The notes: generated by a model from the letters alone, not told the origin. DNA of 32,272 nt from Acidobacteriota bacterium (GCA_003222305.1 QHVQ01000046.1:1-32272); one strand, 5' to 3'. Numbered from the stretch's first letter, positions 18,317 through 25,839 are shown. Program-made: numbers and translations.

Positions 18317-19786
18317 GTGATCAAAGATCTCGTCATCAACGCCGGCCTCCAGGAAATCCGCGCCGCCCTGCTAGAAGAAGGTCTTCCCGCCGAAATCTTC
18401 GTGGAGCGTGCCCTGAGGCCGCCCCTGCTGGGGAACATCTACAAAGGGAGGGTCAGCAATGTCCTCCCGGGGATGCAGTCGGCTTTTGTGGACATCGGGC
18501 AGGACCGCGACGCTTTCCTGTTTGTCGCGGATCTTTTTCCCGGGACGCGCTCCGGTGGGGGCCCCTCTCCCTCCCACGGCCGAGTTCCCTCGGTGGAATG
18601 CCTTGTCAAACCGGGGCAGGAGGCGCTGGTCCAGGTGATCAAGGAGCCCTTGGGGGGAAAGGGGCCCCGGGTAACCACCCAGATCTCCCTGCCCGGGAGG
18701 AGCCTGGTCTTCGTGCCAGGGCGCGCCGGACGTGCGGTCTCACGGCGCATCGAGCCGGATGGGGAGCGCCTTCGTCTTCAGCAGCTCGCGGACGCGATCC
18801 CAGGGGACGGAGGATTCATCGTTAGGACCGCGGCCTACGGCAGCCCGCCGGGGCTTCTGGGAGAGGAGGCGCGCTGGCTCCGCCGCCGCTGGGAGGAGAT
18901 CCGTTCAGCCTCGGCGGGCGCAGCCGCTCCCGATTGCCTCCACCGTGAGGAAAGTCTCGCCGTGCGAGTTCTCCGGGACCTTCTCACGGAAGAGGTTCGC
19001 CGGGTGGTGGTGGACGACGAGAGCACGCTGGAAAAGTGCCGCGTGTTCCTGCGCTCCTACGCCCCTCATTTGGTGACGCGCCTGCAACGATATGAGGGCG
19101 GGGGACCGGTTTTCGAGGTCATGGGCATCGAAAAGGAGATTCAAAGGGCGCTCCGTCGCAGAGTTTGGCTCCCCTCGGGAGGCTATCTCGTGATCCATCC
19201 CACGGAGGCCCTGGTGGCCATCGACGTGAACACCGGGAAATACGTGGGCCGCAACGCCCGGTTCGAAGAGACGGCGTTGGCCACCAACGTGGAGGCTGCA
19301 CGGGAAATAGTCCGACAGATCCGGCTCCGGGATCTCGGTGGGATTCTGGTCATAGATTTCATCGACCTGGAGCACGAGGAGAACCGCCAGGAACTGGCTC
19401 GAGCTCTGGAACAGGAGCTGAAGTCGGACCGGGCGAGGAGCCGGGTATTGCCGATTAGCGAGTTCGGCTTGGTCCAAATCACCCGACACAGGGCCCGACC
19501 AGGCCTGGAAAGCCTCCTGTGCGGCCCGTGTCCCGTTTGCCAAGGATCCGGGCGTCTCAGGACCCCGCAGACACTCCGCTTCCAGATCCAAAGAGAGCTC
19601 AAGCAGACCGCGGGACTGGCTCCCGAAGGCCCGTGGCTGGTCCGGGCCCATCCCGCCGTCGTGGCGGAGATTCAGGGAAACTGGTCCTCGTTTCTCGAGG
19701 ACACGGGATTCGTCAGCGCGGAAGGCATCCAGATAGAATCGGTGAGGGACTTCCATCCCGAGGAATACGAGATCCGGACCTCCTAA
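18317..19786 (+). CDS. rng: Ribonuclease G/E family
   Basis: VFVERALRPPLLGNIYKGRVSNVLPGMQSAFVDIGQDRDAFLF (S1-like), VAIDVNTGKYVGR, ILVIDFIDLEHEENRQEL, GLVQITRHRARPGLESLLCGPCPVCQGSGR. GTG start at 18317 inferred; ORF is open further upstream. Confidence 0.9.
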   Translation: MIKDLVINAGLQEIRAALLEEGLPAEIFVERALRPPLLGNIYKGRVSNVLPGMQSAFVDIGQDRDAFLFVADLFPGTRSGGGPSPSHGRVPSVECLVKPGQEALVQVIKEPLGGKGPRVTTQISLPGRSLVFVPGRAGRAVSRRIEPDGERLRLQQLADAIPGDGGFIVRTAAYGSPPGLLGEEARWLRRRWEEIRSASAGAAAPDCLHREESLAVRVLRDLLTEEVRRVVVDDESTLEKCRVFLRSYAPHLVTRLQRYEGGGPVFEVMGIEKEIQRALRRRVWLPSGGYLVIHPTEALVAIDVNTGKYVGRNARFEETALATNVEAAREIVRQIRLRDLGGILVIDFIDLEHEENRQELARALEQELKSDRARSRVLPISEFGLVQITRHRARPGLESLLCGPCPVCQGSGRLRTPQTLRFQIQRELKQTAGLAPEGPWLVRAHPAVVAEIQGNWSSFLEDTGFVSAEGIQIESVRDFHPEEYEIRTS

Positions 19787-20295
19787 TCACGGCGGATCTT
19801 TTCCCGCTCCTGGAGTCGGTAAGCGCGGCGCCTTTCCGCATCCTGCACGAGTCGGCGGTCCGCTTCGGTCTCCAGCAACAGTGGGGGAGCCGGGACGGGT
19901 CGCCCCGTGGTGTCGATGCAGACCACCGTCACATAGGCGGTGGTCGTGTGGCGCCGCTCGCCCGTGAGCCCATCTTCCGATTCCACCCGGACGCCCACTT
20001 CCATGGAAGATCGGAACACCGCGTTGAGCCGCGCCTCAAGAACTACGATGCTTCCCAGGCGGATGGGCGAATGAAACGTGAGGCTGTCCACCGAAGCGGT
20101 GGCCACCTGGCTCCGGCAGTGCCGCAAGCCCACCACGGCCGCTGACTTGTCGATGAGGGCCATCACCCGCCCGCCGAAGATGTTTCCCTGGGGATTGGTG
20201 TCCTCGGGAATCACCAGCTCCGTCATGATGACACGCGAAGCCGAGGCAGGCTTGGGCGCCTGCCGGGGATCGGCGGGAGCGGACGGTTTGGTCAT
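19783..20295 (-). CDS. Acyl-CoA thioesterase/hydrolase, hotdog fold (YciA-like)
   Basis: MTELVIPEDTNPQGNIFGGRVMALIDKSAAVVGLRHCRSQVATASVDSLTFHSPIRLGSIVVLEARLNAVFRSSMEVGVRVESED. Confidence 0.88.
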   Translation of the reverse strand: MTKPSAPADPRQAPKPASASRVIMTELVIPEDTNPQGNIFGGRVMALIDKSAAVVGLRHCRSQVATASVDSLTFHSPIRLGSIVVLEARLNAVFRSSMEVGVRVESEDGLTGERRHTTTAYVTVVCIDTTGRPVPAPPLLLETEADRRLVQDAERRRAYRLQEREKIRRD

Positions 20296-20347: not shown

Positions 20348-20376
20348 TTGACAGGGTTCGGGCCTGCGCTTAGACT
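20348..20376 (+). promoter_or_regulatory. Putative promoter of the fur-apbE cluster
   Basis: TTGACA (20348-20353), 17-nt spacer, TAGACT (20371-20376); about 55 nt before the fur-family start. Confidence 0.6.
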
Positions 20377-20430
20377 CCCCGCGCCCAATTGAGACTGAGT
20401 CGCAGTTCTGTTCGCCGCGGAGGCACGTCC

Positions 20431-20949
20431 ATGGACCGACAGAGCCTTTTCACCCAGTTCCTGGAGAGCCGCAAGTTGCGCAACACGGCCGAGCGACGGG
20501 CCATTCTCCGGGAGATAGTCGCCCCGGGGCGGCGGCATTTCTCCGCGGAGGACCTGGTGGCTAGGTTTCGAAGGCGAGGGGTCGCCGTGTCCCGGGCCAC
20601 GGTGTACCGAACCCTGGAACACCTGGTGCAGGGTTCTCTGGTGCGGCGGCTGAGCCTGGGACATAAGCACGCTCTTTTTGAGAGCAACCTCGATCGGCGC
20701 GACCACGAGCATCTGCTCTGCTTGCGTTGCGGCGAAGTTTCAGAGTTCGCCAGCCCCGCCCTGGAACGGCTCCTGGAAAGGGTCTGCCGCCGCAAACGGT
20801 TCACACCCCAGCGTCGCTCCGTGCAGCTGCTGGGGATCTGCGGAGCGTGCGCCCGAGGGAAGCGCCCGGCGGAGGGTGGCCGTACGGCTCGCCAGTTCCC
20901 ACGCTCGAAAACGACGGAGAGAGATCGTTCCCGTGGCGGCAATCCGTAA
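20431..20949 (+). CDS. Fur-family transcriptional regulator
   Basis: LRNTAERRAILREIVAPGRRHFSAEDLVARFRRRGVAVSRATVYRTLEHLVQGSLVRRL...DHEHLLCLRCGEVSEF...ICGACARG (two CxxC). ATG 20431 chosen. Confidence 0.88.
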   Translation: MDRQSLFTQFLESRKLRNTAERRAILREIVAPGRRHFSAEDLVARFRRRGVAVSRATVYRTLEHLVQGSLVRRLSLGHKHALFESNLDRRDHEHLLCLRCGEVSEFASPALERLLERVCRRKRFTPQRRSVQLLGICGACARGKRPAEGGRTARQFPRSKTTERDRSRGGNP

Positions 20950-22018
20950 GCCAGCGGTAGTGGCCCCGGCGGCGGCCCTGGTGATCGTGCTGGGGGCGGG
21001 TCTTTCCGAGGGTTCCGATGCAAACCAGCGGCCCGCGCCGACTCTGGTTCGGGCGCGCTACCTGATGGGAACCGTGTTCCGCTTTGAAGCGCCTGTGGAA
21101 GGAGATGGCGCAGGAGTGGGGGAGTCGCTGGAGTCCGCCCTGGACGAGGTCCAGCGTCTGGAAACCCTCCTGAGTAACTGGCGGGACGACAGCGAACTCT
21201 CCCTTCTGAACGCTCGGTCCGGACAGGGTGCCGTCCCGGTGAGTCCGGAACTGTTCGAGGTGGTGGAATCAGCCCTCCGCTGGGCCCGGCTAACGGAGGG
21301 TACCTTCGATCCCACCGTGGAACCCCTCACGCGCCGCTTCCGCGAGCGAACCCTTCCAAGGTCTTCGGGAGCTATAGGCTCGCCCATCCGCGGGATCTCC
21401 TCCGTTGTAGGATGGCGCCGGGTCTCGATGGACCCGGTGCGGCGGACCATCGCGCTCCCCGAGGGAGGCGGTCTAGATCTAGGGGGGATCGGAAAGGGGT
21501 ACGCCCTCGACCGTGCCGGTCGAGTGCTGGCGGTCCGGGGCATTCACGCGGCGTTGCTGGACGCTGGCGGCCAAATTCTGGCCATGGGCACGCCTCCGGG
21601 GGAGTTTGGCTGGCGGGTGGACGTAGCGGATCCCGAGGATCGGAATCGTCCAGCGTACGAGTTTTTGCTGCGGGACGCGTCGGCAGCCACCAGTGGCAAT
21701 ACCGTGCGACCGGGCGAAATCATCAATCCTGCCACGGGAGCTCCGTTAGCGGAGACCCTCACAGCAACGGCCATTGCCCCGGATGGGACCTCGGCCGATG
21801 CCCTCTCCACGGCGCTTTTCGTCATGGGTCCCGAACGAGGAGAGGCCTGGGCTCTCCACCGGGACGATCTGCGGGTGCTCTACCTGAAGCCGGCAGCCCG
21901 CCCCGGAAAAGCCCCTCGGTTCACCGGGACCTTGCCCCAGGCTCCCGAGCGACACCTTCTAATCATCACATCCCGTCAAGCCACCGCCCACAGGAGCTTG
22001 CATGCTGAGATTCGATAG
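20933..22018 (+). CDS. apbE: FAD:protein FMN transferase (ApbE family)
   Basis: RARYLMGTVFRFEAPVEG...EVQRLETLLSNWRDDSELSLLNA...GGLDLGGIGKGYALDRAGRVLAVRGIHAALLDAGGQILAMGTPP...NPATGAPL...TATAIAPDGTSADALSTALFVMGPERG. GTG start 20933 overlaps the fur-family gene by 17 nt. Confidence 0.92.
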   Translation: MAAIRKPAVVAPAAALVIVLGAGLSEGSDANQRPAPTLVRARYLMGTVFRFEAPVEGDGAGVGESLESALDEVQRLETLLSNWRDDSELSLLNARSGQGAVPVSPELFEVVESALRWARLTEGTFDPTVEPLTRRFRERTLPRSSGAIGSPIRGISSVVGWRRVSMDPVRRTIALPEGGGLDLGGIGKGYALDRAGRVLAVRGIHAALLDAGGQILAMGTPPGEFGWRVDVADPEDRNRPAYEFLLRDASAATSGNTVRPGEIINPATGAPLAETLTATAIAPDGTSADALSTALFVMGPERGEAWALHRDDLRVLYLKPAARPGKAPRFTGTLPQAPERHLLIITSRQATAHRSLHAEIR

Positions 22019-23423
22019 GCTGATTCCAGCCGCGACTCTGGTCGCCTTCTGGGTTGGAGTGGCGCCCGGGCGAGCGGCCGATTCGCCGGCCGCTCCCCAG
22101 GTCCCTGTTTCCGTTGCGGAACTGGAAGCGCGTCTGAAGCTCTTGGAGGCGGAAGTGAAGGAGCTGGCGACTCTGGTGGAGACACTCCGGAAGGCAAAGG
22201 GGTCGCCTGAGAGCGGGAGAATCGCGGAACTGGAAAAACAGATCGACGCCCTGACACGGGAGATCGAGGTCCTGAAGCTGGGGCAAGCGGCGGCGCCCCC
22301 CGAGGATCGTTTTCCCTACGGCCTTGGCCCCGCGGCCTCGAAGGTGTATCACGTCCGCGAAGGGGTCTCGGTGGGTGGTTACGGGGAGATCCTCTACAGC
22401 GACTTCAGTGGACGGAATGATTCGGGTGCCCCCTCCGGGGAAGATGATCGCCTCGATCTCCTCCGTGCCGTTCTCTACTTCGGTTACAAATGGAATGACA
22501 GAATCCTGCTCAATTCCGAGATCGAATTCGAGCATGCCACCACGGGGGAAGGGGCCGAGGAGAAGGGTGAAGTCTCGGTGGAATTCGTCTACTTGGACTT
22601 TCTGGTCAAGAAGGGGTTCAACGCTCGGATCGGCCTCGTGCTTGTCCCGCTGGGCATTATCAATGAAATGCACGAGCCGACCACCTTCCCTGGAGTGCTC
22701 CGCCCGAGAGTGGAGACTCAGGTGCTTCCCTCTACCTGGAGCGAGAACGGCGCCGGCGTCTTCGGGGAGACCCGCTGGCTCTCCTACAGGGCCTATGTGG
22801 TGGCCGGGCTGGACGCTTTGGGGTTTTCCGCCAAAGACGGAATCCGGGGGGGAAGACAGGAGGGCTCCCAGTCGCTGGCCAATGACTTCGCGTTTACCGG
22901 AAGGCTGGACGTGACGGGATTGCCGGGACTGATTGCGGGAGTCTCAGCCTTCTCAGGCGACGCCGGCCAGGGAAGGATCCCGGCGCACGCCAGAGTCACT
23001 TTGTTCGACGTCCACTCCCTGATTCAGTGGCGAGGGTTGGAGGGGCGCGGCCTCTGGTCGCACGGCTCGATCGGGAACACAGCTCAGATCGACGAGGCCC
23101 TCGGCATCCTGCCGGGCAGCAGCGCATCGGTGGGGGGGAAGATCAGGGGATGGTACCTTCAGGGCGCGTGGGATCTTTTTTCACTACGAGAGAATGCGAG
23201 ACAATCCTTCGCTCCCTTCCTCCGGTACGAGGCGCTGGACACCCAGGACTCGGTGCCTTCGGGATTTCAGGAGGACCCAGAGTTCCAGCAGCGGATTCGG
23301 ACGGTGGGTCTGACCTGGAAGCCTATCCCGCAGGTGGCCATCAAAGCGGACTACCAGGACGTGGACAACGCGGCACGAGCCGGGGTGGATGAATTCCATG
23401 TGGGGCTGGGCTGGATTTTCTAG
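22002..23423 (+). CDS. Outer-membrane porin-like beta-barrel protein with N-terminal coiled coil
   Basis: Signal peptide; coiled coil VAELEARLKLLEAEVKELATLVETLRKAKG...IAELEKQIDALTREIEVLKLG; GGYGEILYSDFSG, alternating beta-strand pattern and terminal aromatic residue (FHVGLGWIF). Confidence 0.75.
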   Translation: MLRFDRLIPAATLVAFWVGVAPGRAADSPAAPQVPVSVAELEARLKLLEAEVKELATLVETLRKAKGSPESGRIAELEKQIDALTREIEVLKLGQAAAPPEDRFPYGLGPAASKVYHVREGVSVGGYGEILYSDFSGRNDSGAPSGEDDRLDLLRAVLYFGYKWNDRILLNSEIEFEHATTGEGAEEKGEVSVEFVYLDFLVKKGFNARIGLVLVPLGIINEMHEPTTFPGVLRPRVETQVLPSTWSENGAGVFGETRWLSYRAYVVAGLDALGFSAKDGIRGGRQEGSQSLANDFAFTGRLDVTGLPGLIAGVSAFSGDAGQGRIPAHARVTLFDVHSLIQWRGLEGRGLWSHGSIGNTAQIDEALGILPGSSASVGGKIRGWYLQGAWDLFSLRENARQSFAPFLRYEALDTQDSVPSGFQEDPEFQQRIRTVGLTWKPIPQVAIKADYQDVDNAARAGVDEFHVGLGWIF

Positions 23424-23919
23424 CACAAGATATCGAGCCCGGGTCCTGATGCTGCTGGCGACGGGCTTCCTCCTGGTGTGGACCGATTCCCCTGCGGTAT
23501 TGGCGCGAGTCTATCTCACTCAGGACGAAGCCTTGAAGGGCGCCTTCCCCTCCCCTGCGCGGGCGGAGCGCAAGACCCTCTTTCTGGATGAGGCCCAGGC
23601 CGGCGCCATTGAAAAGGAGGCCGGCTCCAAGCTCGGCAGTCGCGTCTTTTCCTATTACGTAGGCAGAGGTGCGGACGGGCTGCTGGGTTATGCCTACTTC
23701 GACACCCACTTGGTGCGGACGCTTCCGGAAACCATCATGGTTCTCCTCGGGCCGGACGGGAAGATCAAACGGGTGGAGGTTCTTTCCTTTTCCGAGGACT
23801 TGGCCCTCCACCGCGGCATTCGCAACCTCACAGGCGCTTCGCTGACGGCCGAGGCGATTACTGCCGCCTGCAGGAGGATTCTCGCCCTGCACCGTCGGGT
23901 GGGAGGGGGGAAAGAGTGA
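23389..23919 (+). CDS. Exported FMN-binding-domain protein
   Basis: Signal-like LMLLATGFLLVWTDSPAVLARVYLTQDEAL; FMN-binding-like core YYVGRGADGLLGYAYFDTHLVRTLPETIMVLLGPDGKIKRVEVLSFSED...LTGASLTAEAITAACRRIL. Alternative start ATG 23449. Confidence 0.75.
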   Translation: MNSMWGWAGFSSTRYRARVLMLLATGFLLVWTDSPAVLARVYLTQDEALKGAFPSPARAERKTLFLDEAQAGAIEKEAGSKLGSRVFSYYVGRGADGLLGYAYFDTHLVRTLPETIMVLLGPDGKIKRVEVLSFSEDLALHRGIRNLTGASLTAEAITAACRRILALHRRVGGGKE

Positions 23920-24401
23920 TTGGCCGGTTCGAAAAGCTGCTGTTGGCCACGGCGACGGTGCTGGCAGGAGGCTCGGGCCTCGTTTATGCATGGATGAAAT
24001 ACATCACCGCGAACAGGGATCCCTTCTCCGTCGTGAACCATCCCTGGCAGCCTTATATGCTCTCCGCCCACGTGCTCTCCGCCCCCGCGCTTCTCTTCGC
24101 CTTCGGTCTCATCGTCCGCGAACACATTCTGGGGCGGTATCGGGACCCCCGGGCGCGCCGGGGGCGCAGGACCGGTATCCTGGCCTCCTGGCTGCTCGCC
24201 CCGATGGTCGCCTCGGGGTACGCGCTCCAGGCACTCGCCTCCCAGAGCCCCCGTCGGGCCACGGGCCTTTTCCATCTGGGAGCGGGAATTCTCTTCCTGG
24301 TTTTTTACGCGGCCCACGTGATACTCGGCTCGCGAGGGCTTCCCGCGCAGGGATCCCTTCGCCTGAGTGGCCGGGGACGGACCACCCGGGCCAAGGATTG
24401 A
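23916..24401 (+). CDS. Small 4-TM membrane protein, possible heme-b-type partner (His in TM2 and TM4)
   Basis: GTGA overlap with the upstream stop; four hydrophobic segments; histidines in MLSAHVLSAPALLFAFGLIVREH and LFHLGAGILFLVFYAAHVILG. Confidence 0.55.
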   Translation: MIGRFEKLLLATATVLAGGSGLVYAWMKYITANRDPFSVVNHPWQPYMLSAHVLSAPALLFAFGLIVREHILGRYRDPRARRGRRTGILASWLLAPMVASGYALQALASQSPRRATGLFHLGAGILFLVFYAAHVILGSRGLPAQGSLRLSGRGRTTRAKD

Positions 24402-24426
24402 AGCGGTGGAAGCTTGTTCCTATAAT
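24398..24426 (+). promoter_or_regulatory. Putative promoter of the TPR protein gene
   Basis: TTGAAG (24398-24403), 17-nt spacer, consensus TATAAT (24421-24426). Confidence 0.55.
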
Positions 24427-24471
24427 CGAGGTGAACCGGGTGTATTCTTCTGCCCGGGAGGAGTGAAGATC

Positions 24472-25839
24472 ATGTCGAGCAGGATGAGGAGAACCGTTCG
24501 AGCGGGAGCAGCGCTGCTGGGCGCGGGGCTTCTGGCCCTGGCCACGGGAGGCCGCCTGTATGCCACAGACACAACGAAGGTGAACGGGACCGTCACCGAC
24601 GTAACCGGCAAGCCGCTGGAAAAGGTGGAAGTCTGGTTCGAAAACGCCAAGATCCAGGGGAAGCGAGTCGGTCCCGTGAAGACCAACAAGAAGGGAAAGT
24701 ACATCTACCCCTACCTGGACGTCGGGATCGAGCCTGAGTGGCGGGTGGTGCCCAAACTGCCAGGCTACCTGGTGCTCAAGGTGAACTGGAAGCTCATCGA
24801 CTCCCAGCGGAACGATCGTGGCAGCAACGAAGCGATCCTGAACACCAAGCAGGAAATCCCCTCCCTCCATCCAGTGCTGGTCGGCGACAGCGGCGTCAAT
24901 GAGGTGGACTTCGTGATGGTCAAAGAGGAGGAGTTCAACAATGCGCTGCGCCAGGCCGTGGCGGCCAAGCAGGGAGGCTCCGCCAACGGGGGCGTTGCCC
25001 CGCCGGGAGGGAACTCCGCCCCCGCTACGCCCGGAACTTCCGCTGCTCCAGCGCCGCCCCCGGAGCCGACGGCTCCAACCCACTCGGTCACGGAAGCAGT
25101 GGACTTGATCAAGGCGGGAAAAAACGAAGAAGCCATCCCCATCCTGAAGGAGTTTCTTGAGAAGAATCCCAACAATGCGCCCGTGCAGTTCACGCTGGGC
25201 AAGGCCCTGGTGAACACGAAGCAGTTCGACCAGGCGGTCCCAGCGTTGCAGAAGGCCCTCGCCATCAAGCCAGATCAGCAGGGGGCGCACTTCTTTCTCG
25301 GGATCGCTTACTCCCAGATGGGACAGGATGCGGACGCCCTGAAGGAATTTGAGGCGGAGATTCCCCTGAGCCCTGCGCAGGATGCCGCCTATTCCAATGC
25401 AGCGGCTATCTGCGAAAAGCAGGGGAATCAGGACAAGGCACTGGAGTATTACAAGAAGGCCGTCGAGATCGCGCCCAACCGGGCTGAGCTGCACGCCAGC
25501 TTGGCGGGGATTTATGAGAAGAAGGGGAACCAGCCCGCCGCCCAGGCAGAATACAAGGCCCTGGCAGAGGTCGATCCCGACCATGCCGCGGTTACCTGGT
25601 TCAACATCGGGGCGATTGCCAAGAACAACGATAGGAACGAGGAGGCGGTCAAGGCCTTCCAGAAGGCCGTAGAGTTGGATCCCGGATACGCCCTGGCCCA
25701 TCGGGAGCTCGGATACGCCTTGGTGAAACAAGGGGACTTCAAGGGAGCGGTGACCCACTTCAATAAGTATCTGGAACTGGTCCCCAAGGCTCCCGATGCC
25801 GGGGAAATCCGATCCATGGCCAAACAGCTCAGCCAATAG
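24472..25839 (+). CDS. Exported TPR protein with N-terminal carboxypeptidase-regulatory-like domain
   Basis: Signal peptide; KVNGTVTDVTGKPLEKVEVWFENAKIQGKRVGPVKTNKKGKYIYPYLDVG; Pro/Ala linker; TPR repeats (PVQFTLGKALVNTKQFDQAVPALQKALAIKPDQQGAHFFLGIAYSQMGQDADALKEFEAEIPL...). SD ggaggagtg before ATG 24472. Confidence 0.85.
   Translation: MSSRMRRTVRAGAALLGAGLLALATGGRLYATDTTKVNGTVTDVTGKPLEKVEVWFENAKIQGKRVGPVKTNKKGKYIYPYLDVGIEPEWRVVPKLPGYLVLKVNWKLIDSQRNDRGSNEAILNTKQEIPSLHPVLVGDSGVNEVDFVMVKEEEFNNALRQAVAAKQGGSANGGVAPPGGNSAPATPGTSAAPAPPPEPTAPTHSVTEAVDLIKAGKNEEAIPILKEFLEKNPNNAPVQFTLGKALVNTKQFDQAVPALQKALAIKPDQQGAHFFLGIAYSQMGQDADALKEFEAEIPLSPAQDAAYSNAAAICEKQGNQDKALEYYKKAVEIAPNRAELHASLAGIYEKKGNQPAAQAEYKALAEVDPDHAAVTWFNIGAIAKNNDRNEEAVKAFQKAVELDPGYALAHRELGYALVKQGDFKGAVTHFNKYLELVPKAPDAGEIRSMAKQLSQ

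Follow-up and report, generated by a model that had tools for sequence, protein, structure and literature searches.

The window analyzed here, the whole 32,272-nt stretch from an Acidobacteriota bacterium (GCA_003222305.1, QHVQ01000046.1:1-32272), carries at 20348-24401 five genes on one strand that encode, in order, a Fur-family regulator, an ApbE-family flavin mononucleotide (FMN) transferase, an outer-membrane porin, an exported FMN-binding protein and a protein with four transmembrane helices (4-TM). All five open reading frames (ORFs) are open and in-frame, and all four junctions overlap (by 17, 17, 35 and 4 nt). The initial annotation had described five same-strand, overlapping genes behind a TTGACA-N17-TAGACT promoter, and we recovered the coordinates, the overlaps and the promoter as given there. 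To that annotation we add a Fur-type operator, an in-frame deletion in the FMN-binding gene, a His-to-Glu change in ApbE and a further gene downstream; the 6-kb region holds three promoter-like sites, compared with 0.5 expected from shuffles. The source is a metagenome-assembled genome (MAG; 2.82 Mb, 223 contigs, 87% complete). The features of the locus are as follows.

20348-20376, + strand: sigma-70-like promoter TTGACA-N17-TAGACT, with 10 of 12 consensus matches
20388-20406, + strand: Fur-type operator ATTGAGACTGAGTCGCAGT, an imperfect 7-1-7 palindrome directly 3' of the -10 box; relatives have this site ahead of the operon too
20431-20949, + strand: Fur-family regulator, 172 aa (PF01475, E=1.6e-26), with a GGAGG ribosome-binding site ahead of its ATG
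20933-22018, + strand: exported ApbE of the FAD:protein FMN transferase family (PF02424, E=6.9e-59)
22002-23423, + strand: outer-membrane porin, 16 strands and an N-terminal coiled coil in the structure model; no Pfam family above cut-off
23389-23919, + strand: exported FMN_bind-family protein, 176 aa (FMN_bind 18.9 bits, cut-off 22 bits)
23796-23797, + strand: point at which 63 nt (21 codons) present in the relatives examined are missing, in-frame
23830-23847, + strand: flavinylation motif TGASLT with predicted acceptor Ser151; [TSAVLG]G[ASC][TS]-x-[ST] in the homologs listed
23916-24401, + strand: 4-TM protein, a predicted di-heme b-type membrane cytochrome, with invariant H52, H70, H120 and H134 and an HPW/LQP motif at 42

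The gene set is conserved over a dozen or more bacterial phyla. Searching 297 Acidobacteriota genomes with the FMN-binding protein, we found 83 carriers of it; by unbiased searches with the other two parts, its gene lies within 2.5 kb of 78 of 80 4-TM homologs and within 4.5 kb of 76 of 77 close porin homologs, with apbE nearby in most of the phylum loci. Across 60 wider loci of the phylum, whose genes we assigned with profile hidden Markov models on six-frame ORFs, the order porin–FMN-binding–4-TM is almost constant, and apbE stands either before the porin gene or after the 4-TM gene. Scanning public genomes with the porin returned at least 591 matching stretches, the best 80 of which we surveyed as named loci: the FMN-binding gene adjoins the porin gene in 74, apbE is near in 42 and a window-type 4-TM gene in 38. 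These best 80 span Acidobacteriota, Gemmatimonadota, Elusimicrobiota, Planctomycetota, Bacteroidota, KSB1, Caldithrix, Bdellovibrionales, Ignavibacteria, Verrucomicrobia, Kiritimatiellia, Methylococcales, Tectomicrobia, Dadabacteria and others, and the set porin–FMN-binding–ApbE–4-TM also occurs on Ideonella, Bradyrhizobium and Methylocystis plasmids. Gene order and linkage in these neighborhood surveys are far above chance. The initial annotation had named porin and 4-TM genes lying apart from flavinylation genes as one outcome that would overturn it; instead, they adjoin the FMN-binding gene almost without fail within the phylum, and apbE is close by in about half of the named loci.

The 4-TM protein reaches no Pfam cut-off, and PDB sequence searches with it, the porin and the FMN-binding protein gave nothing useful, nor did NCBIfam add anything for these three. 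The "paired histidines in two helices" noted for it earlier proved to be H52/H70 on helix 2 and H120/H134 on helix 4, invariant in 37 of 37 sequences, giving the four central membrane histidines characteristic of DUF4405 cytochromes. Its structure model has four helices (predicted local distance difference test score, pLDDT, 90; predicted template modeling score, pTM, 0.81), and its best PDB folds are E. coli hydrogenase-1 cytochrome b (HyaC) and bc1 cytochrome b (probability 0.99, TM-score 0.57, E at least 0.28). Because the E-values are weak, we take this likeness as one of fold class and not as proof of descent. The protein is a predicted di-heme b-type membrane cytochrome, and the four invariant histidines together with the predicted fold support the heme-type donor role first suggested for it. 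DUF4405 (PF14358) membership itself was rejected, with 14.0 bits compared with a gathering score of 26.7 (relatives, 16.7-17.4). A second, alternative 4-TM protein of 170-190 aa with conserved histidines (SMLEVSHAHLPMM...THL...GWLVRFVHP) lies near the porin in thirty loci (some counted twice), directly 3' of the FMN-binding gene in 29 of them; three examples checked matched no Pfam family.

For the flavin part of the system, ApbE is encoded together with its presumed substrate and is the sole ApbE found in the window's genome. The FMN-binding proteins of three relatives score 23-28 bits for FMN_bind, compared with 18.9 for the shortened window copy. TGASLT in the window follows the acceptor motif [S/T]GA[S/T], and every homolog listed has the acceptor Ser/Thr, the first residue being variable; covalent attachment of FMN by ApbE is predicted from the sequence at Ser151. 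A histidine is retained at the catalytic position in 73 of 87 aligned cassette ApbEs. As separate observations, AEI-type ApbE catalytic sites also occur in L073 and L133, and a second FMN-binding gene (L089:6732-7268) lies about 7 kb from a complete cassette.

The porin model (16 strands with an N-terminal coiled coil, pLDDT 88) has the general porin fold, matching OmpU in Foldseek (E to 4.2e-13) and also OprO/OprP and OmpF. Across 50 sequences, Glu173, Glu175, Glu177 and His178 on strand 3 and His224 and Glu225 in the long loop past strand 5 are invariant, and these acidic and histidine residues would line a cation-selective constriction. Weaker relatives form a separate, paralogous subfamily, with an FMN-binding gene near only 3 of 25. 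In ten members inspected (L198-L207), proteins named by reading their sequences and not by Pfam include an adjoining CxxCH di-heme-oxidoreductase-like protein in nine and a DtxR/MntR-like regulator gene in three; a cupredoxin-like protein, likewise named from its sequence, is sometimes present. Bacteroidota plasmid relatives pair the porin with an imelysin and an annotated di-heme oxidoreductase.

The operator ATTGAGACTGAGTCGCAGT falls after the -10 box and ahead of the Fur start codon, placing a Fur-type site at the promoter as in a Fur regulon. Inverted repeats with its 7-1-7 layout have been described as Fur operators (PMC11353095, PMC3050691). It recurs before the operon in relatives, exact or near-exact, with exact copies ATTGAGACTGAGTCGCAAT in three (L037, L038 and L044). 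To quantify operators, we compared the sequences upstream and downstream of 140 distinct loci. The 15-mer TGAGAATNATTCTCA, a common Fur-box variant, occurs with up to three mismatches upstream of 96 loci and downstream of 4; TGATAATNATTATCA gave 40 and 9. A generic Fur-box 19-mer with up to five mismatches was found upstream of 84 and downstream of 3, with an average of 4.6 in dinucleotide shuffles, and with up to three mismatches the counts were 35 and 0. Zinc control was rejected (two Zur operator types, 9/6 and 7/2 upstream/downstream), as was peroxide control (PerR-type boxes, 10/6), and Nur boxes (58/40) were weakly above background. Fur-family genes adjoin about 12 of the phylum loci and, among the 80 named loci, 7. 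In the window, the Fur protein carries two CxxC pairs (97-100 and 137-140), HxH at 92-94 and Glu105, the last at the position that discriminates Fur from PerR, which has Asp there. The initial annotation had foreseen metal or peroxide control: the metal half is supported, narrowed to iron by the strong enrichment of Fur-type operators, and the peroxide half is not borne out.

Iron also appears among the neighboring genes. Of 147 loci, 12 have FeoB as a neighbor, 11 of these with it on the same strand (Pfam confirms two); a rough estimate, which assumes a density of about one FeoB in a 4-Mb genome, would predict fewer than one in the 1.96 Mb that the 147 loci cover. The order Fur–FeoB–ApbE–porin–FMN-binding–4-TM occurs in two Acidobacteriota loci (L077 and L097), and L129:7125-7904 encodes a version of the alternative 4-TM protein that carries a fused FeoA domain (E=8.8e-21), with FeoB following. 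An iron-dependent (DtxR-type) regulator adjoins L125, and a ZIP transporter adjoins L116. The link to a ferrous importer expected of an assimilatory iron reductase is thus seen across the wider set of loci, through the 12 FeoB neighbors and the FeoA fusion, and not in the window's own family, where no ZIP was found and NRAMP is present in 3 of 4 genomes. The window genome's NRAMP gene (G000:C109:1947-3031, L195) matches as two separate pieces, possibly a frameshift or an assembly error. Because Fur operators are enriched, PerR, Zur and Nur sites show little or no enrichment, and FeoB or FeoA is linked or fused, we narrowed both control and cargo to iron, where the initial annotation had left the cargo as a metal, acceptor or ligand.

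Taken together, gene order, conservation, operator enrichment, FeoB/FeoA linkage, fold class and invariant residues argue that the operon is probably an iron-starvation system for assimilatory iron reduction in the periplasm. In such a system, Fur with Fe(II) would occupy the operator at 20388-20406 and block the promoter, and a drop in iron would allow the operon to be expressed. The 16-strand porin, with its acidic and His-rich lining, would let iron, free or loosely chelated, pass the outer membrane. The di-heme b-type 4-TM cytochrome would carry electrons from the quinol pool over the inner membrane to the exported FMN-binding protein, flavinylated by ApbE on the Ser/Thr of TGASLT, and the flavin would reduce periplasmic Fe(III) to Fe(II). 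Import of Fe(II) would then fall to FeoB where linked and otherwise to a transporter elsewhere in the genome, such as the NRAMP found in the window's family. The heme, the flavin, the direction of electron flow, the cargo and the role of the window copy are what we infer in this scheme. More tentatively, it is quite possible that the wider set of loci represents a widespread outer-membrane iron route free of TonB receptors, in which a dedicated, Fur-controlled porin lined with acidic and His residues works with a flavin reductase to keep iron in the periplasm as Fe(II), and interchangeable 4-TM cytochrome families donate the electrons. If true, this would add a recurrent iron-acquisition system for bacteria of many phyla, mostly uncultured, and explain one unannotated porin family and two unannotated 4-TM families. 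It would also define the partners of flavinylation as porin, flavoprotein, cytochrome and Feo, a set testable in cultured carriers such as methanotrophs; one cultured carrier is Methylovulum miyakonense (L155).

Several observations weigh against an iron reductase. FeoB linkage is confined to 12 of the 147 loci, FeoB_C found no match in the four genomes of the window's family, and the NRAMP contigs of that family carry no Fur-type operator. No FMN-binding gene was detected near the porin in 6 of the 80 named loci, some of them at contig ends. Some plasmid copies have copper-related neighbors: multicopper-oxidase genes flank the Methylocystis cassette, and close to the porin homolog of Manganitrophus is a heavy-metal P-type ATPase. 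In the window itself, the FMN-binding protein is without 21 codons between SE and DLAL, just before TGASLT, a segment present in all relatives examined (PEDYFPREAWLGQFAGRSLDA in the nearest), though reading frame and Ser151 are intact. In addition, the catalytic-His position of ApbE is Glu262 (codon 21716-21718), which aligns with His257 of V. cholerae ApbE, reported to be absolutely conserved and whose H257G mutation abolishes flavin transfer (PMC5655446). Because of this deletion and the His-to-Glu change, flavin attachment in the window's family is in doubt, even if the wider system is flavin-based.

These two lesions could mean that the window copy is decaying, and thus non-functional or altered whatever the family does, which we consider unlikely but a serious option. 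Against decay, the five frames remain open, in-frame and overlapping; the deletion may have arisen in assembly, the MAG being in 223 contigs; and the Glu is common to all four genomes of the window's family, in which the other genes appear intact.

A respiratory or extracellular electron-transfer module, in which the 4-TM protein and flavoprotein feed an outside or periplasmic acceptor admitted by the porin and iron control merely spares heme, appears improbable. Flavinylated proteins of other systems do serve respiratory acceptors (PMC8238504), no siderophore receptor is part of the gene set and the Ideonella cassette has a cytochrome c peroxidase gene ahead of it, but the recurrent cassette neighbors include iron-transport genes and no terminal reductase gene. 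We hold it a shade less probable still that this machinery serves a different redox metal, copper or manganese being the foremost candidates, with periplasmic reduction before import and the porin as the metal channel. The multicopper-oxidase and P-type ATPase neighbors fit this, as does the NRAMP of the window's family, since NRAMP can carry Mn, but the operators are of the Fur type, neither Zur nor PerR, and FeoA and FeoB are linked or fused. A periplasmic redox defense or repair function of the peroxide or methionine-sulfoxide type is very improbable: Fur-family proteins include PerR, as which the Fur protein would have to act, but PerR-type boxes are not enriched, Glu105 argues otherwise by the general rule for that position, and the cassette has no repair enzyme. 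Flavin and b-heme donors that feed MsrQ-type repair (PMC11334425, PMC8238504) are the other point in its favor.

Two neighboring genes stay beside the cassette in the same order and in part of the class. Downstream, a tetratricopeptide-repeat (TPR) protein with a carboxypeptidase-like N-terminal region (identified by eye) is encoded at 24466-25839, behind its own promoter-like site at 24398-24426; upstream lies a divergent acyl-CoA-thioesterase-like gene at 19783-20295.

The iron reductase proposed here has relatives among known systems. Flavinylation clusters with PepSY-like or MsrQ-like donors have been proposed as iron reductases (Meheust et al. 2021, PMC8238504); these also combine ApbE, an FMN-binding protein and a heme-type membrane donor, and some are Fur-repressed or linked to ferrous transporters (VIT1) or TonB receptors. 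Here, by contrast, the donor is a 4-TM protein with no Pfam family, a dedicated porin stands in place of the TonB receptor (the word "porin" is absent from that paper) and the ferrous partner is FeoAB. The flavinylation- and ferrosome-associated proteins DUF4405 and FezC, for which heme b binding has been demonstrated (PMC11334425), resemble the window's 4-TM protein as small membrane proteins with four central histidines adjoining apbE, but DUF4405 is described there as having six TM helices, and the four-helix window protein scores 14 bits, compared with 26.7. The ferrisiderophore reductases HiuABC and FoxB (PMC13001220) likewise join a Fur-regulated outer-membrane transporter to a di-heme inner-membrane reductase, theirs with FeoAB downstream, but use a TonB receptor and a PepSY protein where we find porin, flavoprotein and 4-TM protein. 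In E. coli, ferrous uptake depends on a general porin, OmpC, acting together with Feo (PMC7315122), but neither a porin nor a reductase is dedicated to that system and co-transcribed with it. Pairs of a porin and a di-heme oxidoreductase, some with an imelysin, a protein type implicated in iron uptake (PMC3143127), also place this porin superfamily beside a redox protein, but with a c-type di-heme enzyme for the flavoprotein and no ApbE, FMN-binding or 4-TM protein. Our literature search found no published description of a porin–FMN-binding–ApbE–4-TM iron system, though unindexed or subscription papers may hold one, and the gene set is apparently undescribed to date. Flavin-based iron reductases have already been proposed and Fur-controlled reductive systems are known, and what is apparently new is the combination of porin, FMN-binding protein and 4-TM protein, with the biochemistry we infer for it.

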